DNA of 22,266 nt from IMG/VR virus record IMGVR_UViG_3300025889_001055, positions 1-22,266 of that record; one strand, 5' to 3'. Below the pieces are notes generated by a model, which worked only from the letters and a program-made list of their open reading frames with translations, had not been told where the DNA came from and searched no databases. The position numbers and the translations under genes are program-made. Below, piece after piece: positions 5,069 to 18,363 of this stretch. This DNA comes from a virus. How positions within the stretch are numbered: the stretch's first letter is position 1; every line of letters starts with the position of its first letter.

Positions 5069-7855
5069 ATGATAGGTAGTTTTGGTGGTTTTGGTGGTAT
5101 GGGTCTGGGGGCATTTAGCAACTTCACCCTGCCTTCCGAAGAAGAAATACAAGCACGTCTAAAAGCCTCTGGTATACAAGGCTATGGCCCTCCTACTTCT
5201 GTTGTAGCGCCCATACCTACAACACCACCCCCTGCACCACCCCCTGCATCACCTATTGTGACTCCTATAAAGTACGATCACGTAGGTCGCCCAAGTGTTA
5301 CTAAGGTATCCACTCCTAAGCCTACGCCTGTACCCCCTGCCTTCGGCTTCACAACGCCCAAAACGTCTAGTCGATTTGAAGAAGAGGCAGTGGCTGCTAG
5401 AAGAGATGCTTTGGCTAGGCAGGAAGCTCAACGTAAGGCAGCGGAAAAAGCAGCGGCAGATGCAGCAGCGCGTAAAGCAGCTCAAGCGGAAGCGGCTGCT
5501 AGAAAAGCTAGACAGGAAGCAGAACGTAAAGCCGCAGAAGAAGCCGCAAAGAAACGGGTTGCACCTAAACCAACGCCTGTAACACCTCCAAATAGAGTGG
5601 GTCAGCCTGTAGGTATGGGGGAGTTCATACCCGAACCAACGCCTGTAACACCCGTAACACCTATCCCTGCCCCCTCTACGGCAGACCCAGTGATAGCTGC
5701 CGACGCCCTAAAAAACATGCGAGCCATGACTAAGAACATGACTCCAGAACAGCTACGCAAAATATCAACATATGCGCCGGAGTTGGCTGAACAGCTAAGA
5801 GGGCCAACAACACCTAAGAGTGCCATTCAGTCGTACAAAGACACGCTACTAGGTGCTGCTAGCAGGAATGTGTATGACATTATAGACGATGTAGATGAAG
5901 TAGATGATTTCTACGATATGGCGTTCAAGGGTAGTGTATTAGAGCCGTTAAAGTCTAAAGAGCCAGAGCAGAAGGAGGCTAGACCCGATGGCAAAGCCCG
6001 AGGAGATCAGTATTTGTCGGGCAAACGTGGTGATGTGTTTGCATTTACTCCTGACGAATATATATCTGAGGTAGGTGCCCCCGAGTATTTGAAAGGCTTA
6101 AAGAGCGGCGTTGGTGCAGACAAGGATGTGATTCGATCTGCTTATGCCTCTATCGCTAATACGGGCGGTGCAGATACTGCGGCAGCATTAAGCAGCTATT
6201 ACGGGTTTGATGTTGCACCTAGCGGTGCGGCACCAGATATTAAGAACTTTGGCGGTAACTACGAAGAGCATACAAACGCTTCACAAGAACAGATTTCCGA
6301 ATTTCAGTCACTTATCAAGCCTGTGCTGGCAGAGACTATACCCTACCTACAAGCCACTGAAGGGTTAGATTATCAAGACGCATTGCTAGAAGCGTACAAA
6401 CGCGACCCCATGATCCAGTCTATGTACGCCAAGTACGGTGTGCAGCCAGTACGTCAGACAAAAGACGGATCTACTTACCTGTATGACCCTATGACTTTCG
6501 GTGAAATACGCACCAAAGAAGTCAAAGACAGCTCTGTTAAAGACGCGCTCAAAGTAGCTGCTATCGTGGGTTTATCTCTTGTTGGTGGTGGAGCACTGGC
6601 TGGTACGGCTGCATTTGGTGGTGGTACGTCTGCGGCTGGCTCTGCATTGGCTTATGGCACAACATCAGCCGGTATTACCGCAGCTACAGGCGGAGACACT
6701 AACGACATCTTAAAATCCTTTGCTCTTGGTGGTGTAGGGGGATTCGCTAAAGGACTTAATGCGGCGGCAGAAGCAAGTAAAGCCAGTTTAGCTACTGCCG
6801 TGCTTGAAGCTGGTGGTGGGGGTGCAAGTCCGGCACTAATAGAAGCCGCAAATGCTGCCGCAAAAACTGCCGATACGTTTGGTAAGGTAGTGCAAGGAGC
6901 TAAGTTTGTAGACGCTGCTATAGATGGGGACTTAGCAGGTGCTGCGGTTGCTGCGTTCGGCCCTAAATTTACCAAGACAGCGATGGACAAAGTTGGTTTA
7001 GATGAGGAGTTTTTAGATGGGTATAACATCAATCAAGATGATGCCGTTGCAGGACTTGTTAAAACTCAGCTTGAGCTAACAAAGGGTACCGATTTTGGCG
7101 ATGCTATAGCCAGAGGCTTTGGTGAATACATCATGGAAGGTGGTGCATTAGCGCCTAGCAACGTAAAAACACCCGAGTTCATCAAAATGATAGGCGATGC
7201 AATCAAGGAAGCTGGTAGTGGGATTGACGATGCGCTTTTACAACCTGTTAAGGGTTTTGTAGAAGGTACCGTTGAGGTACTAGGTGATGTGGCAGAGCCT
7301 GTGGTGGACGTAATCGAAGACGTAGCAGGCGCAGTAGTAGATAAAGCACCGCTTATAGAAGATGCAGCAAGGGCTACAGGTTCAGCAATAGAGGACGTTG
7401 TTAAGCCGATAGTAGATCCGATAATTGATGCTGCACCTGCTGTAGAAGACGCAATCAAAGAAGCAGGTCGTACTGTAGATGATGTAATCATAGAACCAGT
7501 AAAGGACATAGTAGAAGAGGTTGTAGAATCTATACCTGATGTCGATGTTGACCTACCTGATGTCGATGTTGACCTACCTGATGTCGATGTTGACCTACCT
7601 GATGTCGATGTTGGGCTGCCCACATCTACGCCCACATCTACGCCCGTAACCATGCCCTCATATGCCTATACCCCCGGCATAATCGAAGAACGTGGGGCCG
7701 AACTGTTTGACCTTGGCGAACAGCGAGGAAGAGAAGTAGACCCTGTAACCGCTTACTTAGCCAGCATCACGGGTAGTGGTATGGCAAATGGTGGTGTAGT
7801 CAGAAGTTCTTATGGTAATCTTGACGAGCTGCTACGTATAGTTGGAGGCAAGTGA
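5069..7855 (+). CDS. Large Pro/Ala/Gly-rich internal virion (ejection) protein candidate
   Basis: This 928-residue modular protein has, in order: a Gly/Phe-rich N-terminus; a Pro/Thr linker (about 38-75); a TolA-like Ala/Lys/Glu/Arg coiled coil (about 104-170); another Pro/Thr linker; a mixed globular region to about 490; a glycine-zipper hydrophobic stretch (about 495-545, 'AAIVGLSLVGGGALAGTAAF'); an Ala/Asp/Val amphipathic region with 11-residue-like periodicity (about 725-820); four PDVDVDL repeats (823-850); and a C-terminus with 'MANGGVV' (905-911) and 'NLDELLRIVGG'. Hydrophobic glycine-rich and long helical parts are common in proteins ejected into or through the cell envelope with the DNA. 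No enzyme motif was found. Its TGA shares one base with the next ATG. Confidence 0.65.
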   Translation: MIGSFGGFGGMGLGAFSNFTLPSEEEIQARLKASGIQGYGPPTSVVAPIPTTPPPAPPPASPIVTPIKYDHVGRPSVTKVSTPKPTPVPPAFGFTTPKTSSRFEEEAVAARRDALARQEAQRKAAEKAAADAAARKAAQAEAAARKARQEAERKAAEEAAKKRVAPKPTPVTPPNRVGQPVGMGEFIPEPTPVTPVTPIPAPSTADPVIAADALKNMRAMTKNMTPEQLRKISTYAPELAEQLRGPTTPKSAIQSYKDTLLGAASRNVYDIIDDVDEVDDFYDMAFKGSVLEPLKSKEPEQKEARPDGKARGDQYLSGKRGDVFAFTPDEYISEVGAPEYLKGLKSGVGADKDVIRSAYASIANTGGADTAAALSSYYGFDVAPSGAAPDIKNFGGNYEEHTNASQEQISEFQSLIKPVLAETIPYLQATEGLDYQDALLEAYKRDPMIQSMYAKYGVQPVRQTKDGSTYLYDPMTFGEIRTKEVKDSSVKDALKVAAIVGLSLVGGGALAGTAAFGGGTSAAGSALAYGTTSAGITAATGGDTNDILKSFALGGVGGFAKGLNAAAEASKASLATAVLEAGGGGASPALIEAANAAAKTADTFGKVVQGAKFVDAAIDGDLAGAAVAAFGPKFTKTAMDKVGLDEEFLDGYNINQDDAVAGLVKTQLELTKGTDFGDAIARGFGEYIMEGGALAPSNVKTPEFIKMIGDAIKEAGSGIDDALLQPVKGFVEGTVEVLGDVAEPVVDVIEDVAGAVVDKAPLIEDAARATGSAIEDVVKPIVDPIIDAAPAVEDAIKEAGRTVDDVIIEPVKDIVEEVVESIPDVDVDLPDVDVDLPDVDVDLPDVDVGLPTSTPTSTPVTMPSYAYTPGIIEERGAELFDLGEQRGREVDPVTAYLASITGSGMANGGVVRSSYGNLDELLRIVGGK
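7535..7618 (+). repeat. 21-bp tandem repeat, four copies
   Basis: The unit CCTGATGTCGATGTTGACCTA occurs three times without a mismatch, followed by a fourth copy whose last six bases differ. It encodes PDVDVDL x3 plus PDVDVGL in the 928-residue protein. Base-perfect copies point to recent expansion or conversion by slippage. Confidence 0.95.
7619..7642 (+). repeat. 12-bp tandem repeat, two copies
   Basis: CCCACATCTACG occurs twice directly after the 21-bp repeats and encodes PTSTPTST. It extends the slippage-prone linker of the 928-residue protein. Confidence 0.9.
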
Positions 7856-8778
7856 TGAGTTTAGATTTTGGTATGTTGGACGATCTATTAAGAACATCCG
7901 GCCCCTCTATGTCTGGCCCAGCCGATGCTGGATTTGACTACAGCATTTTCGATAACTACGGCACAGACGATGACCCCCTGTATGGGTTTGACTTAGATGA
8001 TTTGTTACGAACTTCTAGCTCTTCTGAAGAAGACGATTTGTTGGAGCTTTTTGGCTTCGGTGAAGACGAGAGATCTAATGCTGACATACTCGACTTTCTT
8101 GCGGGTGCAAAAGAAAACGACTACAACCCTACATTTATGGACAGGGTAGGTGGTGCTCTAAGTCAGTTCTTCCCAGAAAGAAAAGGGTCTGGTGGTGCTG
8201 GTGGGTTACTTGAGCTATTAGGCCCATTAGCTCTAACCAGTTTCCTCAAAGACCGTGGTGTGTTTAAGCCTGATATAGCACCTGTGGGGTACCAAGGTAA
8301 AATACCTGAGTACACCGCTATACGAGAACAAGTTACAGGTAGAGACGATACAGACCGTCGCCCCGGCAGTAGTGGTAGACGTTATTTCTCTGACACCATA
8401 TACGCCAAGAAGCCTGAAGGCCAAGAACCTATGACTGTAGAAGAAGCTCGTGCTAAAGCTAAAGCACAAGCAAGTGGGTTTGCCAATGGTGGTCGCGTGC
8501 TAGAAGATGGCGGCTATCTACAAGGTGATTCGGACGGGCAAGCAGACCTAGTTCCCGGTGATATAGATGGTGTACAAGAAGCACGTTTGAGCCACGGTGA
8601 GTATGTGCTGCCTGCCGATTTAGTCGCTATACTAGGCAACGGTAATTCTGATGCAGGTGCCGCAGCACTGGATGATTTTATGTCCACAGTACGTAAGAAA
8701 GCCACTGGCACGCCGAAACAACAGAAAAACATCGACGCAGATCAAGTGCTTGCGATGTTATCTAAGAGGATGTCGTAG
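7855..8778 (+). CDS. Virion-associated protein with conserved phage C-terminal 'ANGG' module
   Basis: This 307-residue protein starts at ATG 7855, sharing one base with the upstream TGA (TGATG); a GTG one codon earlier is possible but less likely. The N-terminus is very acidic and carries 'LDDLLRTSGP' (about 9-18) and 'LDDLLRTSSS' (about 47-56). The middle has a Gly/Leu hydrophobic patch (GGAGGLLELLGPLALTSFL). The C-terminal 100 residues (from about 208) contain FANGGRVLEDGG, then GQADLVPGDIDGVQEARLSH, GEYVLPADLVAILGNGNSDA and a basic helix. I recognise that C-terminal module as widespread in phage virion proteins of unknown function. It lies inside the ejection-protein block, so a role in ejection or its assembly is inferred. 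Confidence 0.7.
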   Translation: MSLDFGMLDDLLRTSGPSMSGPADAGFDYSIFDNYGTDDDPLYGFDLDDLLRTSSSSEEDDLLELFGFGEDERSNADILDFLAGAKENDYNPTFMDRVGGALSQFFPERKGSGGAGGLLELLGPLALTSFLKDRGVFKPDIAPVGYQGKIPEYTAIREQVTGRDDTDRRPGSSGRRYFSDTIYAKKPEGQEPMTVEEARAKAKAQASGFANGGRVLEDGGYLQGDSDGQADLVPGDIDGVQEARLSHGEYVLPADLVAILGNGNSDAGAAALDDFMSTVRKKATGTPKQQKNIDADQVLAMLSKRMS

Positions 8779-8781
8779 ACC

Positions 8782-9990
8782 ATGACTGATCCAGTAGTAG
8801 ACCCCAATAGCCCTGTAGGGCAATCATCCGGCAGTACGCAGGGATTGTCCGAGTTTGCTGGCCCATATGTCACCGAAATGCTTGGTAAAGCACAAGCACT
8901 TGCTGATACACCTTATCAAGCCTACGGTGGCCCACTTACTGCTGGCGCTAGCGATCTACAAACACAGGCTTTCGCGGGCTATGCAGGATTAGATCCCAGC
9001 CAGCAAACTGGCATAGCTTCTTTCGATGGTGACATGACCGCTGGTGGTACGTTTGGTTTTGGTAGTGCCGCAGGGCAAGGTTACGAAGCAGGGTATACAC
9101 CCGGTTCTTATGATCTGTCTGATATGCAGCAAGGTGCGTTCCAAAACACATACGACCCTACATCATTTACAGCGAGCACTGCACAGCAGTACATGAACCC
9201 CTACCTGCAAGCTGCATTAGATCCACAACTACGTGAGGCACGCCGCCAAGCGGACATTAGCCGTGTAGCTGATGCGGGAAGGTTGACCCGTGCCGGTGCT
9301 TTTGGCGGCTCACGCCAAGCAATTATGGAAGCAGAGGGTGGTCGTAATTTAAGTCAACAACTTGCCGATATTACCGGCAGGGGTTACTCCGAGGCTTTTG
9401 GGCAAGCACAACAGCAGTTCAATACCGAGCAGCAACGTGCAATGGCTAACCGCGATGCGCTCATGGCGCAGTTCAATGAAGAAGAACGTATGCGCCAGCG
9501 TATCGCTGAAGTCGGCGTAGACCAGTTTAATAGAGAAGAAGAAGCGCGAAGACAAGCGGAAGATGCTCGTCGTGGGCAGTTCAATATAGAAGCTGGGCGA
9601 CTCTCCGAGTTCGATGAACGCCGTAGATTACAGGCAAACGAAGAAGCCCGACGAGAGATACAACGCCAAGAGCGAGAACGTGAACAGTTCAACGAAGAAG
9701 AACGCCGCAGAATCGCAGCAGAAGAAGCAGACCGTCGATACGGTTTAAGCGCACTGCGTGATATGAGCACTGCTGGGGCCACTCAACGGGGTATTGAGCA
9801 AGAAGGTATTACAGCCGATTATTTGCAGTACCAGCAAGAACAACAATACCCGTACGAACAGTTACAGTTTATGCAGTCTATGCTGCAAGGCTTACCAATC
9901 ACTGCCACATCTCGTCAGTTTGTTGAACCCGGAGGGTTTCAAGAACTATCTGGTGGTTTAGCAGGGCTTCTCGCACTACTACAATCGTAA
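8782..9990 (+). CDS. Coiled-coil internal virion protein with six 18-residue repeats
   Basis: This 402-residue protein has an N-terminal Gly/Ala/Tyr-rich region with 'FAGPYVTEMLGKAQALADTP' (25-44), and then 'YMNPYLQAALDPQL' and 'AGRLTRAGAFGGSRQAIMEA', blocks that I recall from unnamed marine phage structural proteins. Residues 212-319 are six consecutive 18-residue repeats with consensus QFNxEExRR, predicted as one uninterrupted charged helix. The C-terminus is Gln/Tyr-rich, then hydrophobic (GGLAGLLALLQ). A long rigid helix with a membrane-friendly tail is consistent with an ejected tube or scaffold component. The start ATG lies three bases after the preceding stop. No enzyme motif was found. 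Confidence 0.7.
   Translation: MTDPVVDPNSPVGQSSGSTQGLSEFAGPYVTEMLGKAQALADTPYQAYGGPLTAGASDLQTQAFAGYAGLDPSQQTGIASFDGDMTAGGTFGFGSAAGQGYEAGYTPGSYDLSDMQQGAFQNTYDPTSFTASTAQQYMNPYLQAALDPQLREARRQADISRVADAGRLTRAGAFGGSRQAIMEAEGGRNLSQQLADITGRGYSEAFGQAQQQFNTEQQRAMANRDALMAQFNEEERMRQRIAEVGVDQFNREEEARRQAEDARRGQFNIEAGRLSEFDERRRLQANEEARREIQRQEREREQFNEEERRRIAAEEADRRYGLSALRDMSTAGATQRGIEQEGITADYLQYQQEQQYPYEQLQFMQSMLQGLPITATSRQFVEPGGFQELSGGLAGLLALLQS
9415..9738 (+). repeat. Six in-register 54-bp (18-residue) protein repeats
   Basis: QFN (QAN in the fifth copy) recurs at residues 212, 230, 248, 266, 284 and 302, exactly 18 residues apart, usually followed by Glu/Arg-rich sequence. The DNA copies have diverged (CAGTTCAAT, CAGTTTAAT, CAGTTCAAC), so the periodicity is held at protein level. 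Confidence 0.93.
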
Positions 9991-11847: not shown

Positions 11848-14800
11848 ATGGCGACAGTAGCGCAGGCTAGAAAAGCCATAGAGGTGTTAGAAGCTCGCGG
11901 CGATATAGCCGGAGCCGCTGCTATCCGAAGAGATTTGAGTGCCGCTGGACTGTCTGCTAGCGCCACGGACTTTGAAGCGCAGGTTGCCGCAGAACGTCAG
12001 CAAAGACTTGAGCAAGAAGAGCGCCGACGCCAAGAAGACTTAGAACGTCGCATCGAACTGGCTGAACTCGAACGCGGGTCGCTTGCTAGGGGCTTAGACA
12101 TTGGCACTGACATCGTGGCGCAAGCCACAGGCTCTGCCCTTGAAGGTACTGGTAAGTTGTTTGGTCTAGCAGGGCTTGAGCAGTACGGTGCTGAAGTTGC
12201 CCTTGAGAACGAAGCGGACGCACAGCGCAAAGCACGGTTCCAAACCAGATTCGATGATATTGGCGGTATCGGAGACTTCGGATCTTATCTTGGTGGTATT
12301 GCCGCAGAAAGCGCCCCACAGATGGGGGCAACCCTTGCTGGTGGTGCAACAGGCGCGAAGATTGGTGCGGCCCTTGGCCCAGTGGGTGCGGGCATTGGCG
12401 CATTGGTAGGCGGTGCAGCCGCCAGCTTACCATTCTTCTACGGTATGAACCGCGAGCGGCAAAAAGAAGCCATAGATCAAGGGCTAAGAACTGAAGTAGA
12501 CGAAGGCGCAGCAGCGTTAACGGCTATCCCACAAGCCACGCTTGACGCCATCCTTGGGCGTTTGTTCGTCGGTAAGCTCGGCCTTACTAACCGCGCAGTA
12601 GGTGGCGGCGGTATATTTACCCGTGGCGTTAAAGGGACTGCGGCTGGTGCCATAATAGAAGCACCTACAGAACTGGGGCAGCAAGTCCTAGAACGCGCAC
12701 AAGCTGGGCTACCTTTAACCAGCGAAGACGCTATTGCAGAGTACCGTGAAGCAGCTATAGCTGGTGGCTTGTTAGGTGGTTCTATACGAGGTGCCGCTAC
12801 CGTAGCTGGTGGTGACGTTGCTGCTAGAGAAGACGCGCAGAAGGCTAAAGAAGAAAGAGACGCTGCCGCCAGACGCGCCGAAATAGAAGCCACACTAGCC
12901 GAAGAGACCGCCGTTGAAGCAGAGGCAGCAGAACGGCAGGCAGAAGTAGAACGCCGCATACGTGGAGGCGAACCCCAACCTGATACCGTTGCAAGGCCCG
13001 CACCTCCTGCCGTAGAGGCCACGACGGAAGAAACAACAGAAGAAACAATAGAGGAAGGCGCACTTCCTGTCGTAGATGACGAAGCAAAAGCTGCCGCCGA
13101 CGTTGTGTCTAAAACCGTAATCAAGCGCGAGGGTAAGCCGACTGAGACAACCACGCAGACGCGGAAAGAGTTTGAAGCCGCTGTTGATGAAGCTCAACAA
13201 AAGGCCGACGCCGCCCCAACCGTCCTAACCGCAAAGTTCTTTGACGACATAGGATTCGGTAAAACAGCGAAGATACGTAAAGAACTTACAGGCAAAGACC
13301 TTACAGACTCCGCTACCCGGGACTCTCTAAGAAGAGCCGCCGCCGAGACTCGCAGCAAAAAGAAGCTAGAAATACAGGCTAATCTGGAAGAGGCATTCAA
13401 GGAACAAGAGGTAGTAGATGACCAGCAACGTAATATATCTGCCAGTGCCGAAGGAAAACCTTTCGCAACAAGAAGTGGAACAGGCGATGCAGTTAATCTA
13501 TCAAGCGTGGAAGTCGATGCAGAACGTACGGATACCGTGGAGTCTGGCCCATCTGTCGGAGGAGCAGTGGCAGATGCTAGAGGAGGCACTGGACGATTTA
13601 CTACTGGAGCAGATGGACAGCCAGATACACTAACGCCAACCCGTGAGTTTACCGAAATTAAGGTTTTACTGGAAAAAGATAACAGAACTCCAGAAGAAGA
13701 AGCTAGGTTCGTAGAACTGGTGGACGAGGCTAGAGCAGACTTTGCGCGGCGTCAAAAGCCAACCGAAGATACGCGAGAAGCAAGTTTAGAGCTTGAAGAA
13801 GGGGCAGTTACAGAAGAGCAGGCAGCGATAAACGCGGAGACAGAGGCAGAAGCCGCAGAGCTTACCGAAGCTATAGAAAATCTACAGCGGGCAAACGCAG
13901 TGTTAAAAGGGGGTGAACGTCCAGCCGCAAAGCCTGTACAGATAGCCACGTCGATAGCCGATCCCGACAACGTAAGGACGCAAGAGATACGCCAGTTCCA
14001 TGCGGACAGAGTGGCAGAGGCAAAAGAATTTGGTGAAAAGCCCCCTACATTATCGCAGTCAAGGGACGAGTTTACGGTACAGGAAGGCTTAGACCCTAAT
14101 GTACGTAGAGTAGAAGGTACACGTTACTCTGCCGTAGGTGACGCGGATTTTGAAATAAATGAAGACGTTGTTGCAGGTAGGTTAACAGAGCAGGGAGTTA
14201 CAACCGAATCTGACAGGCTATTAAGGGAGACAAAGGGCGGCACTCTGATTGATGCCGTCAAGAACGTAGCGCGTAATGCTAACAACCCGTTTGAACGGTT
14301 AATAGCGACTAATGTATCCAAGCTGATGCAGCGCATGATGGATGCAGGCTACAAATTTGAATATGAAATAGAAGAACTATCTTTTAATAGCATAAGGGGT
14401 GGCACACGGGGTTATATGGAACCCGAACGAGGCCCACTTAAAGTTGTTCTACGGCGTACAAAAGACCCTTTGGCCCTACACAATGGGCTTACTCATAAAA
14501 CATTACTTCACGAAGCTATACATGCAGTTACAGCGCCTTTGCTAGCAAGCGGAAACCTACGTTCTTTTCCTGAAGGCACCAAGCTAAAGAACGACGTTAA
14601 CGATCTGCGTGATCTGTTCAGCGGAGTCATACGTTATTTTAACAAACGTATAACTGACGTTAAGGCAGGGGTAATGCCTGAAACGGATCTACTGGCAGTA
14701 GAGAGACGATTCTACTTCAGAGAAAGGAACACACTAGCTAACCCCGACGAAATGCTTGCGTGGGCACTTACAGACCGAGAAGTGCAAGAGTTCATGGACA

Positions 14801-17800
14801 CTGTTCCATACGACACGCGAACTGGAGATATAGGCACTGAAGGCAAAGGCACGATAACGCTGTGGGAAGCCCTCGTAAACGCACTACGTAAGCTGCTAAA
14901 CCTGCCACCTAAAGACAACACCGCCCTGAACGAACTGCTGCGCGTGCAGAATAACTTACTTGCACCTGACACGGCGGACATAGGAACAGCGGGTAGGCTG
15001 TATGGAGCGTTACCTAAATTTTCTTCTAAGGTTGACGACAACCCCGCTCTGGTCAGTAGGCCAGAAAAAATGGCGTCTGAGATCTTAAATGGTGGTCTGA
15101 AAAGTGTACCCATACTGGATTCCAAGGGCGTACAACGGGTTCGGGACGTTGTTTCTGACGCTTCTTTACCGGAAAAAGCTAAATCGTTTGTGCTGGGTAT
15201 TCTTAGTCTCAACGGCCTAGAAATGGTCGCTAAGAAATACATACCTAAGATCGGCAAGGTCAGGGATCTAGTGCTGAAAGAAGGCGGACGGCTACAGGAA
15301 CTCAAACGTCCTGTGGATGCAACGATTAGCAAGATCTCTGCTTTCGCCAAAAACAACAAAGAGAAGGTAGACATACTCAACAGGCTCATGCCGTACAGCT
15401 CTCTAATCGGCGTAGACCCGTCCAAGAACAGGAAGACGTACGAGGAAGACGCTGACAAGTTAGCTGAATACGATGCCATGCACGCCAAGGATGGCGACTG
15501 GACTGCATTGGGGGAAGACGGGCAGAGAATCTATAAGGTTGTCCGCAACACGTACAAAAAACTGTACGACGAGATAGCTAATGTAATAAAGATACGTCTG
15601 GAAGCTACAGACCTAGACCCAAAGAAACGTAAGAACGTATACGACGAACTGATTAACAAGTTATACAAAAACGTAACGATTGACCCATACTTCCCCCTTA
15701 TACGCGAAGGTAAGTATCGCCTGCAATACAACGCTACTGATCCGAAGACAGGGCAAGCAGAGTTTTTTACAGAATCGTTTGAAACCAAACGTGAACGCCG
15801 AGAAGCTATAGAAGAACTAAATGCTATGGCGGGCGAGATACAACTGACTAACGTGCTCTCGTTTGAAGGGACGGAAAAAGTAAACTACAGCAACGCCCCT
15901 GCTGGGTCTTTTGTTAACAATGTGCTTGGCGTGTTGAGTGCAAACGACGTAAAGCCGAACGTACAAGACGAGATCATAAAACTGTTTCTGGACACATTGC
16001 CAGAACGCTCGTTTGCACAGTCGTTTAGACGACGCGAAGGCTTCCGTGGCTTCATAGGTGACCCCGCAAATCTTCGGGAAGCTAAGTACCCCAATCACGA
16101 TATGGTGCGGGCACTGCGAATACGAACCGCATCTGTAACACGGCAGATTGTGCGTATGGAATTCGGCGCAGAGCTGCAAAAGGTTCAAGAAGAACTTAAC
16201 GAAGACTTCAAGGCGTACAATAACAACCCGAACGTATCAGAAAACGACAAGCAAGCCGCTGCTCAGTACCTAGCAGAAGTCGAGAAACGTATAGCCTTTG
16301 CTAAGAACCCCGACGTAGAAGACTGGGCCAAGAACCTGACTACGTTCGGCTTTGCTATGACGCTAGGTGTTAACCTGTCATCCGTGCTAGTCAACTTCTC
16401 TCAAATACCTATGGTCATAGCGCCGCACTTAGCCAGCACTAGGGGCGACGACGGTGAATACTTCGGCTACAGCGATACGCTCAGTGCTATGGGTGAAGCG
16501 GTAAGGCTATTCAAAAACGCGGGTAGGAGCGATGAGAACATCAAATACCTGCCGTTTATCAAGCAACGTGAAGCTCCAGTAGAAGCGGTTGGGCCAGATG
16601 GTACAGAGCAGGTCATGGTTCCTTCTGCCCCATCTATAGATAACTATGACTACAACGCTGAAGGTATACCACCAGAAGTCAAAGAGTTTGAGATGCTGGC
16701 TAAGGTGGCAGAAGAGACAGGTCAGCTAAACAGATCCATCATGTATGACACGTTGGATATGGAAGAGATTGACAGCATACGAGGAAAGATCGGGGCGGTC
16801 TCCGGGTTCATGTTCCATCATGGCGAACGTATGACACGTCAGGTAGCTCTTGCTGCGGCGTACCGCCTAAAAGTGGACTCCATGAAGCGTGCCAAAAACA
16901 ACTTGTCCAAGGCAGATTTCAAGGCTCTGTCTGCTGAAGAGAAAGCTAACCTCAAGTTGAGCGAAGCCGAGTACCGCGAAGCCGCTGAGTTTGCTGTCTA
17001 TGAGGTGGAACTTACTAACGGCGGTACCGCTGCCGCTTCTGCACCGAGACTTGCTCAAAAAGGAATAGGTAAGGTTGCGTTTCTGTACAAGCGATACGGC
17101 GTGCAGATGATGGAGCTTTTGTACAAGCTAGGTGCGGAGTCAATCAAAGGCACACCAGCGGAAAAAGCACAAGCCCGTAGACAAATGGCAGGTGTGTTCG
17201 GCGGTGCGGCGTTGGTTGCTGGTGCACAAGGTCTGCCAATGTATGGCGTGGCTGCTATGGTGTACGACATGTTCAAGGGCGACGAAGACGAAGATCTTGA
17301 TACTGTAGTTCGTAAGACGATAGGAGAAGAGCTTTTCGGAGGTATGGGTAACGCTGTACTAGGTGTAGACGTTGCGAGTCGTATGGGTCTGTCTGACCTA
17401 GTATTCCGAGACCGACTCATCGAAAAAGATCAGCCATTCTTATTTGACCTAATAGAAGTCCTTGGTGGCCCCGTAGTCGGTGTATCAATGCAGATGGAGC
17501 GGGGGTATGACAAAGCAATAAACCAAGGCGAGCTTATGAGGGGCGTGGAAGCTCTGTCTCCTGCTGCGCTACGCAATGTCTTGAAAACCTACCGATTCTA
17601 CGAAGACGGTGCTAAAACCCAACGTGGCGACACCATCGTAGATGACATATCCGCGCCTCTACTTGTCATGCAGTTCTTAGGCTTTGCCCCAGCAGAATAC
17701 ACCAGACAACTGGCGCAGAATGCTCAACTCAAGAAAATATCTGGTGCGGCTGCTAGGCAGCGTACTAAGTTGTTACGTAGGTACTATGCAGCCGTAAGAA

Positions 17801-18036
17801 GTGGGGACACTTCTAAGGCACGAGGCATCCGCGAAGACATGAACGAGTTTAACCGTAAGTTCCCCAGTGTGCGGATTACGCCAGATACGATCAAACGGTC
17901 TATGGCCCAGCACATGAAAACGTCAAGAAAGATGCACTACGGCGTAACTATCGACCCAAGAATGATGAGAGACATGCGACAAAGCGCCGCCGAGTACGAC
18001 GATACGCTGACAATATGGGACAACTTAGGGATGTAA
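11848..18036 (+). CDS. Giant polyvalent internal virion protein with zincin protease motif and LPD38-like C-terminus
   Basis: This 2062-residue protein starts with a charged coiled coil (about 1-75), followed by a glycine-zipper hydrophobic region (about 145-200, 'AALGPVGAGIGALVGGAAAS') likely to enter membranes, an acidic low-complexity linker (about 310-700), and a metalloprotease-like motif 'LLHEAIHAVT' with H888, E889 and H892 and a likely third ligand E968 in 'NPDEMLAWAL'. The second half is helical with conserved phage blocks: 'RREGFRGFIGDP', 'NLSSVLVNFSQIPMVIAPHL' (within 1495-1533) and a C-terminal 'GVDVASRMGLSDLVFRD' region, resembling the large polyvalent protein domain LPD38. Such proteins are packaged and injected with the DNA. 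It is the last gene of the rightward operon. A separate gene is nested in its linker at 13418-13633. Confidence 0.82.
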   Translation: MATVAQARKAIEVLEARGDIAGAAAIRRDLSAAGLSASATDFEAQVAAERQQRLEQEERRRQEDLERRIELAELERGSLARGLDIGTDIVAQATGSALEGTGKLFGLAGLEQYGAEVALENEADAQRKARFQTRFDDIGGIGDFGSYLGGIAAESAPQMGATLAGGATGAKIGAALGPVGAGIGALVGGAAASLPFFYGMNRERQKEAIDQGLRTEVDEGAAALTAIPQATLDAILGRLFVGKLGLTNRAVGGGGIFTRGVKGTAAGAIIEAPTELGQQVLERAQAGLPLTSEDAIAEYREAAIAGGLLGGSIRGAATVAGGDVAAREDAQKAKEERDAAARRAEIEATLAEETAVEAEAAERQAEVERRIRGGEPQPDTVARPAPPAVEATTEETTEETIEEGALPVVDDEAKAAADVVSKTVIKREGKPTETTTQTRKEFEAAVDEAQQKADAAPTVLTAKFFDDIGFGKTAKIRKELTGKDLTDSATRDSLRRAAAETRSKKKLEIQANLEEAFKEQEVVDDQQRNISASAEGKPFATRSGTGDAVNLSSVEVDAERTDTVESGPSVGGAVADARGGTGRFTTGADGQPDTLTPTREFTEIKVLLEKDNRTPEEEARFVELVDEARADFARRQKPTEDTREASLELEEGAVTEEQAAINAETEAEAAELTEAIENLQRANAVLKGGERPAAKPVQIATSIADPDNVRTQEIRQFHADRVAEAKEFGEKPPTLSQSRDEFTVQEGLDPNVRRVEGTRYSAVGDADFEINEDVVAGRLTEQGVTTESDRLLRETKGGTLIDAVKNVARNANNPFERLIATNVSKLMQRMMDAGYKFEYEIEELSFNSIRGGTRGYMEPERGPLKVVLRRTKDPLALHNGLTHKTLLHEAIHAVTAPLLASGNLRSFPEGTKLKNDVNDLRDLFSGVIRYFNKRITDVKAGVMPETDLLAVERRFYFRERNTLANPDEMLAWALTDREVQEFMDTVPYDTRTGDIGTEGKGTITLWEALVNALRKLLNLPPKDNTALNELLRVQNNLLAPDTADIGTAGRLYGALPKFSSKVDDNPALVSRPEKMASEILNGGLKSVPILDSKGVQRVRDVVSDASLPEKAKSFVLGILSLNGLEMVAKKYIPKIGKVRDLVLKEGGRLQELKRPVDATISKISAFAKNNKEKVDILNRLMPYSSLIGVDPSKNRKTYEEDADKLAEYDAMHAKDGDWTALGEDGQRIYKVVRNTYKKLYDEIANVIKIRLEATDLDPKKRKNVYDELINKLYKNVTIDPYFPLIREGKYRLQYNATDPKTGQAEFFTESFETKRERREAIEELNAMAGEIQLTNVLSFEGTEKVNYSNAPAGSFVNNVLGVLSANDVKPNVQDEIIKLFLDTLPERSFAQSFRRREGFRGFIGDPANLREAKYPNHDMVRALRIRTASVTRQIVRMEFGAELQKVQEELNEDFKAYNNNPNVSENDKQAAAQYLAEVEKRIAFAKNPDVEDWAKNLTTFGFAMTLGVNLSSVLVNFSQIPMVIAPHLASTRGDDGEYFGYSDTLSAMGEAVRLFKNAGRSDENIKYLPFIKQREAPVEAVGPDGTEQVMVPSAPSIDNYDYNAEGIPPEVKEFEMLAKVAEETGQLNRSIMYDTLDMEEIDSIRGKIGAVSGFMFHHGERMTRQVALAAAYRLKVDSMKRAKNNLSKADFKALSAEEKANLKLSEAEYREAAEFAVYEVELTNGGTAAASAPRLAQKGIGKVAFLYKRYGVQMMELLYKLGAESIKGTPAEKAQARRQMAGVFGGAALVAGAQGLPMYGVAAMVYDMFKGDEDEDLDTVVRKTIGEELFGGMGNAVLGVDVASRMGLSDLVFRDRLIEKDQPFLFDLIEVLGGPVVGVSMQMERGYDKAINQGELMRGVEALSPAALRNVLKTYRFYEDGAKTQRGDTIVDDISAPLLVMQFLGFAPAEYTRQLAQNAQLKKISGAAARQRTKLLRRYYAAVRSGDTSKARGIREDMNEFNRKFPSVRITPDTIKRSMAQHMKTSRKMHYGVTIDPRMMRDMRQSAAEYDDTLTIWDNLGM
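13407..13411 (+). promoter_or_regulatory. Ribosome binding site for the nested gene (AGAGG)
   Basis: AGAGG, within CAAGAGGTAG, ends six bases before the ATG at 13418. It is a fair Shine-Dalgarno match although it lies in the middle of another coding sequence. Confidence 0.5.
13418..13633 (+). CDS. Nested small gene in another frame of the giant protein gene
   Basis: A 71-codon frame, offset by one base from the 2062-residue gene, starts at ATG 13418 right after an in-frame TAG, with AGAGG six bases upstream. The predicted protein looks well folded: a short start (MTSNVIYLPVPKE), an amphipathic helix (QQEVEQAMQLIYQAWKSM), IPWSLAHL, then a Trp-containing helix (EEQWQMLEEALDDLLLEQ) ending SQIH. 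That ending recalls small phage proteins with 'LTxEDWxxLxxLLxxLLxE' and a final LH. In the main frame the same DNA encodes a Gly/Ser/Thr/Asp-rich disordered linker (about residues 524-596) with an unusual bias for GGA glycine codons (8 of 11, no GGT), as expected if the other frame is selected. Function is unknown. Confidence 0.68.
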   Translation: MTSNVIYLPVPKENLSQQEVEQAMQLIYQAWKSMQNVRIPWSLAHLSEEQWQMLEEALDDLLLEQMDSQIH

Positions 18037-18078
18037 AAAACCCCCTTACCGCAAGAAGGGGTATTTACGGTAAGGGGG
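18035..18078 (-). terminator. Intrinsic terminator of the leftward operon
   Basis: An exact 11-bp stem pairs 18041-18051 (CCCCCTTACCG) with 18068-18078 (CGGTAAGGGGG) around a 16-base loop. Read leftward, the stem is followed by six U residues from the A-run at 18035-18040, giving a typical rho-independent terminator. Read rightward there is no U-tract, so it should mainly stop the replication-module transcript. The A-run overlaps the stop codon of the giant protein gene. Confidence 0.85.
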
Positions 18079-18138
18079 GTAGGAAGGTGATAAGACCCAT
18101 CAGCAGGAGACCAGACGACCTTATCAGGGCGGATCGTA

Positions 18139-18363
18139 TCACACCAATCTCCAGACGCGAACCCCTAAAAAACGACCTTCTAGGACGCCCTTGGCCCGTA
18201 TATCCCACCCCATTTCGTCCACGCAGATACGCTTAATCTGCGTTAGTGCCTTATCTGTGTCGATGCACGGCACGAATATCGAACTCCCTACCACCATAGC
18301 ACCCCAGTCCACCACGATACGCACCCCGTCAGGGTTCAAGTCGTGCGTCTTGAGGGTCATCAT
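18139..18363 (-). CDS. Small hypothetical protein overlapping the primase 3' end
   Basis: This 74-residue leftward protein starts at ATG ATG (18363 or 18360), inside the last 35 bases of the primase-helicase gene in another frame, and ends about 60 bases before the terminator. The sequence has balanced composition: 'DLNPDGVRIVVDWGAMVVGS', 'SIFVPCIDTDKALTQIK', then 'GWDIRAKGVLEGRFLGVRVW'. This pattern of strand, short helix and basic strands resembles small DNA- or RNA-binding-type phage proteins, and I recall similar unnamed proteins ('MVVGxSVFVPCI'). It is the last gene of the leftward operon and is probably translated by coupling. Its function is not known. Confidence 0.65.
   Translation of the reverse strand: MMTLKTHDLNPDGVRIVVDWGAMVVGSSIFVPCIDTDKALTQIKRICVDEMGWDIRAKGVLEGRFLGVRVWRLV

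Follow-up and report, generated by a model that had tools for sequence, protein, structure and literature searches.

A probable overprinted gene within the linker of a phage polyvalent giant gene

Introduction

Overprinted genes nested inside other genes are familiar from phages, Rz1 within Rz being one. Another is gene E of phiX174, which is nested within D (PMC8227390). The closest published analogue of the gene described here is ShiLan, an HNH insertion lying out of frame within a phage methylase (PMC11855218). Phage polyvalent (LPD) proteins are predicted to be packaged in the virion and ejected; they have been proposed to carry host-targeting enzymes, with LPD39 suggested to be enzymatic (PMC5512222). 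A search of the text of that paper returned no mention of genes hidden within polyvalent proteins, and nested genes in polyvalent giants were reported nowhere in the literature searched, subscription papers lying outside its coverage. Nested overprinted genes are thus already known; the gene described here, designated A and located in a polyvalent giant, is unannotated.

The window, meaning the whole stretch of DNA analysed, comprises 22,266 bases of IMG/VR record IMGVR_UViG_3300025889_001055. An initial annotation had placed an overprinted gene inside the linker of a giant internal virion protein. Judged by comparison with related sequences, the stretch in question is, with a probability of roughly 90%, a genuine overprinted gene that would be expressed by internal initiation on the giant's mRNA (Table 1).

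Table 1. Coordinates of the giant gene, of nested gene A and of further nested families. Positions without a locus name are those of the window.
Feature	Position	Strand	Description	Basis
Giant PLxRFG/LPD39 polyvalent-type protein, host of A	11848..18036	+	2062 aa	ORF and Pfam/NCBIfam matches
LPD39 domain of giant	15175..15657	+	residues 1110-1270	Pfam match
Best-scoring PLxRFG-model stretch of giant	17026..17967	+	residues 1727-2040	NCBIfam NF032893
Nested gene A	13418..13633	+	ATG to TAA, 71 codons plus TAA; +1 frame relative to giant gene	
Shine-Dalgarno-like AAGAGG	13406..13411	+	6 nt spacing to ATG of A	
TAG in A frame	13415..13417	+	immediately 5' of ATG	Sequence of window
Family B	L041:11986-12168; L044:7847-8035; L037:8904-9050		49-63 aa, +1 nested, LPD38-type giants	SD present
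Family C	L041:12580-12735; L043:13144-13302		52-53 aa, +1 nested, LPD38-type giants	SD present
Family D	L152:4940-5326; L159:8001-8387; L160:8001-8387; L154:4658-5017; L161:8001-8393; L162:8001-8393; L165-L203		120-138 aa, +1 nested in PLxRFG/DarB-like giants	SD, synonymous constraint

The host gene and its neighbourhood

Like the polyvalent proteins described previously (PMC5512222), the host of A carries LPD39 and PLxRFG regions, matching Pfam LPD39 with an E value of 2.8e-11 (43.9 bits; cut-off 27) and the NCBIfam PLxRFG model NF032893 with an E value of 6.8e-98 (328.9 bits; cut-off 100). Its designation as a giant internal virion protein is plausible for a member of this class, packaging being predicted for the class only (PMC5512222). 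Holin-like, lysozyme-like and virion structural genes lie 5' of the giant gene, and a gene resembling one of Pseudomonas phage Rollin lies 3' of it on the opposite strand. Proteins of cultured phages share around 25% identity with the C-terminal half of the giant and bear the names PLxRFG or DarB-like protein. A 73-codon basic ORF at 18015-18236, which had no family match, shares 22 bases with the 3' end of the giant gene.

Over A, the giant frame encodes DDQQRNISASAEGKPFATRSGTGDAVNLSSVEVDAERTDTVESGPSVGGAVADARGGTGRFTTGADGQPDTLT, a stretch containing 11 Gly, 9 Ala, 9 Thr, 8 Asp, and 7 Ser residues. The description of this region as a disordered linker finds support in composition only, the TOP-IDP of the overlap exceeding that of the remaining giant in 54 of 54 sequences, although the stretch in the window itself is not extreme (rank 352 of 1991). 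The shift in glycine codons that had been noted in the giant frame proved exact: the overlap contains GGA 8, GGC 3, and GGT 0 times, whereas the remainder of the giant gene contains GGT 60, GGC 57, GGG 23, and GGA 17 times.

The nested frame and its homologues

The product of A in the window is 71 residues long, contains three Trp and no Cys, and is acidic (pI 4.3) and soluble-looking (GRAVY -0.41). The length of the frame, the stop directly before its ATG, the three Trp, and the well-spaced Shine-Dalgarno (SD)-like site were all confirmed as first annotated. The AlphaFold model contains two helices, at residues 17-33 and 48-69, and is of moderate confidence (pLDDT 73). As a single ORF, A is within chance expectation: the longest +1 ORF in the real giant has 73 codons, and 112 of 1000 codon-shuffled giants contain one at least that long. 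Since length alone is not significant, the case was built on conservation instead, which exceeds chance.

Scanning IMG/VR with the A ORF returned 26 loci and scanning with a profile of A returned 65, the homologues in these 65 contigs being as little as about 38% identical. All 65 lie in the same +1 register inside a long ORF, and none is free-standing; the hosting ORFs span about 930 to 2480 codons, truncation by contig ends accounting for the shorter lengths. Removal of near-duplicates left 54 A sequences in 13 clades of giants. In the widest alignment (window numbering), A23, P40, L43, L46, W51, L54, L58, L61, and the C-terminal H71 are invariant, and the copies differ in length by whole codons while retaining the start, SD, and stop position. 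The initial annotation had named stops or a missing start in related phages as evidence against the gene; the frame is, however, open in 65 of 65 contigs.

The A frame is open for 40-60 codons further 5' in L120:6857-7225, L121:6765-7109, and L123:989-1378, which share the start MLLVQNKIRFLPR and may represent an extended version of the nested protein. In L042, the giant is divided over two frames of 627 and 2257 codons (7791-9671 and beyond), which reflects either a true frameshift or an assembly error.

Searches for A against phage records, PHROG, and PADLOC returned no match, those against NCBIfam a sub-threshold match only, and a single-peptide-pattern scan of genome contigs one spurious 12-residue match only. 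DUF2922 matched about 24 residues in 16 of 29 members, scored below its cut-off where that was shown, and was taken as a chance match.

Translation start of A

An SD-like match of at least four bases precedes the start in 53 of 53 intact copies of A, that is, those not truncated by a contig end, and a match of at least six bases is found in 51% of copies, compared with 2% of comparable background +1 spans. No sigma-70-like promoter was found in 12900-13700. The presence of a ribosome-binding site without a promoter argues, with high confidence, for internal initiation, whereby ribosomes would start at 13418 on the giant's mRNA; this would also be the simplest route for A.

Alternatively, the A frame might be translated as a short fusion through a programmed frameshift of the giant, a reading prompted by the frame being open far upstream in L120, L121, L123, and L075. 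The window, however, lacks any open upstream extension of the A frame, and the TAG abutting the ATG rules out read-in from an upstream frameshift. A stop directly precedes the ATG in several relatives as well, and the SD lies ahead of the start in every intact copy; a frameshift product is accordingly rejected as highly improbable.

Selection on both frames

Ordinary synonymous variation in related giants would have counted against a nested gene, but was not seen. In every sufficiently diverged clade, synonymous change in the giant frame falls inside the overlap. Within the window's clade, the fraction of such change is 0.042 in the overlap with A, compared with 0.303 outside it. The corresponding values in six other clades are 0.070/0.377, 0.013/0.263, 0.005/0.208, 0.060/0.284, 0.008/0.244, and 0.017/0.161, and those in a three-sequence clade are 0.014 and 0.195. 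The lowest 30-codon synonymous windows of the giant fall in the A overlap in the window's clade, and at the overlap or its edge in most clades. The amino acid identity of the giant is not raised over A; the window's clade gives 0.46 there and 0.81 in the rest of the gene. Separately, codons 427-452 and 854-879 of the L023/L030 giants are without synonymous differences, the gene average being 0.30, and no nested gene was assigned to either stretch.

A has a pN/pS of 0.12-0.37, and the giant frame one of 1.6-5.1, in the eight sufficiently diverged clades. The two small clades that remain hold too few changes for judgement; the value for A is 0.67 in the one two-sequence clade with few changes, L133/L143. 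Variability peaks at giant codon position 1 (position 3 of A) in seven of the eight clades, L118 being the exception, and is lowest at giant position 3 (position 2 of A) in all eight.

When the giant protein was held fixed and its synonymous codons resampled, the A frame was open with a median probability of 0.015 per sequence, and the product of these probabilities over the 13 clades is about 1e-24. When A was held fixed and its own synonymous codons resampled, the giant frame—which is actually open in all—was open with a median probability of 0.03. Both frames are thus held open, and A is the one conserved in sequence. These substitution patterns show A to be under purifying selection, with the giant frame there kept open but otherwise free to change.

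Two further readings are judged by the same data. The first, an ORF that arose by chance where codon usage is unusual, draws on the 11% of shuffled giants in which a +1 ORF equals or exceeds the longest one observed; it is contradicted by every conservation test—synonymous constraint, pN/pS, resampling, and SD—and is rejected as scarcely credible. The second holds that the constraint acts on a DNA or RNA signal or structure rather than on a protein, as the high nucleotide identity across the overlap might suggest. However, change is concentrated at third codon positions of A, as the low pN/pS of A also attests, and length differences come in whole codons with start, stop position, and SD kept; an RNA signal would not track the codon phase of A, and hence this reading is rejected as very improbable.

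The genuine overprinted gene remains the preferred reading. The initial annotation had counted a lack of free-standing homologues as evidence against the gene, and none were indeed found; together with the reduced synonymous change and the open frame, however, their absence speaks for a gene that arose in situ rather than an artefact.

Exchange of A between giants

The window's giant shares nucleotide similarity with several unrelated giants in the A ORF alone, as in the island at giant nt 1577-1765, which is 79% identical to L083. The A of the window differs from that of L092 by a pN of 0.08, although the giants' C-termini are only about 30% identical, and from that of L101 by a pN of 0.15, although these giants are 80% identical overall. 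A tree rejected the grouping of all A copies from the window's giant clade into one clade (AU p = 0.0019), with bootstrap support not fully settled. L009 and L021 share 67-69% identity in one half of the giant, yet A is absent from them and its frame contains many stops; in the case of L009, it is the C-terminus that is 67% identical. The A-less relatives L009, L021, and L027 differ on one side of the linker. The tree shows A passing between giants by recombination in the linker.

Further nested families

Other, unrelated +1 nested genes occur in giants that lack A but belong to the same broad class; the search for them covered PLxRFG/LPD38/LPD39-class giants only. At least four unrelated nested families occur in such giants, two of which are widespread. 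Families B and C are represented by few sequences. In an unsupervised synonymous scan of giant pairs, the lowest synonymous window falls on family B in the L041/L044 pair (0.00 vs 0.54) and on family C in the L041/L043 pair (0.07 vs 0.595). Their proteins are basic and their carriers are uncultured phages. A possible relative of family C is located at L045:10831-11034 and L052:10834-11037.

Family D reaches cultured phages, its carriers being Serratia phage Parlo, Klebsiella phage ZX1, Pseudomonas phage Skulduggery, Ruegeria phage 45A6, and Vibrio phages D274 and 1.232.O, plus 39 IMG/VR loci. The total is 45, one IMG/VR record being Parlo itself. Every copy is nested in the +1 frame of a giant, and the hosting giants carry SLT, helicase, methylase, and LPD39. 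An open D frame is uninformative (median chance 0.48 by resampling), and the case for D thus rests on conservation, synonymous constraint, and SD. An SD match of at least four bases is found in 96% of copies, compared with 21% of all +1 ATG/GTG codons; synonymous difference inside and outside D is 0.23/0.47, 0.12/0.46, and 0.26/0.49 in three cultured pairs; and nested identity exceeds giant-frame identity in 96%-100% of pairs. D is listed as a gene in none of the annotated records that contain it. D-like matches on plasmids NZ_CP083940.1 and NZ_CP110255.1, under genes annotated as LPD38 protein and DEAD/DEAH helicase, suggest that the arrangement reaches plasmid-borne or phage-plasmid giants.

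The AlphaFold model of D is all-helical (pLDDT 78). Foldseek returned no significant structural match for the models of A and D, neither sequence matched those in the PDB, and no known relative of any of the four nested families was found. Common ancestry of A and D is not claimed, their profile comparison giving an E value of 0.055 and a probability of 1%.

Possible functions of the product

With no match to a structure or family, the function of A is inferred from context alone. The product would be a small, acidic, mostly helical protein, encoded in a tolerant linker of the giant and spreading between giants through linker recombination. The favoured, though tentative, idea is that this protein serves as a helper produced alongside the giant, in which case it may act as an assembly or packaging chaperone, or as a keeper of the giant before ejection. 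Such a role would account for A and three unrelated families being found only in this gene class. Against it, A is exchanged between giants sharing little beyond C-termini of about 30% identity, which speaks against a partner dedicated to a single giant, and some giants with 67% identical C-termini, such as L009, are without A. By extension, and with the same reserve, the linkers of PLxRFG/LPD38/LPD39 giants may be recurrent hosts for mobile, out-of-frame nested genes, each specifying a protein that is co-translated with the ejected giant and partners it as a chaperone or antidote.

About as likely as a helper is a product unrelated to the giant, in which A, while real, would encode a late accessory, anti-host, or anti-defence protein that happens to sit in a tolerant, recombining linker. 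The movement of A between unrelated giants, its presence or absence among close relatives (L009 and L021), and the want of any known structural partner all favour this. The four unrelated families, however, all lie in this gene class, which is the only class examined, and neither A nor D was ever found free-standing in the collections searched, which would be odd for an unrelated role. Less likely than either, and on balance improbable, is an antidote or inhibitor whose task in the producing cell would be to hold inactive an effector domain of the giant destined for injection. Co-expression with the giant would be built in, and host-targeting enzymes have been proposed for polyvalent proteins, LPD39 being suggested to be enzymatic (PMC5512222); no toxic domain was identified in the window's giant, however, giants lacking A exist, and A is exchanged between giants with different N-terminal halves.

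Comparison with known systems

These proteins escape gene callers that disallow long overlaps, and family D exposes this annotation blind spot in cultured phages. A conserved gene within a protein predicted to be ejected offers a testable handle on how the giant is built, kept inactive, and delivered. A is also a natural example of a gene arising in a tolerant linker and then spreading horizontally. A layer of phage proteins hidden until now has become testable.

Like ShiLan, A is a second gene in another frame of a host gene that stays open and tolerates the extra stretch, and like ShiLan it spreads between divergent host genes, as the rejected single clade and the similarity island indicate. 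Unlike ShiLan, a homing endonuclease of 195 residues, A encodes only 71, and no match to HNH or any other homing endonuclease was found for it in Pfam, PHROGs, or NCBIfam. A also differs in being old enough to have diverged to about 38% identity and in possessing a strong SD.

The arrangement resembles phiX174 E/D and Rz1/Rz in that A is on the same strand as its host, lies wholly inside it, and would be read by internal initiation. Unlike E and Rz1, however, the product of A is not hydrophobic, and having no Cys it has no lipobox, in contrast to an Rz1-type nested spanin. A further difference from both pairs lies in the host, which is a polyvalent gene of 2000-4000 codons in which several unrelated nested families recur.
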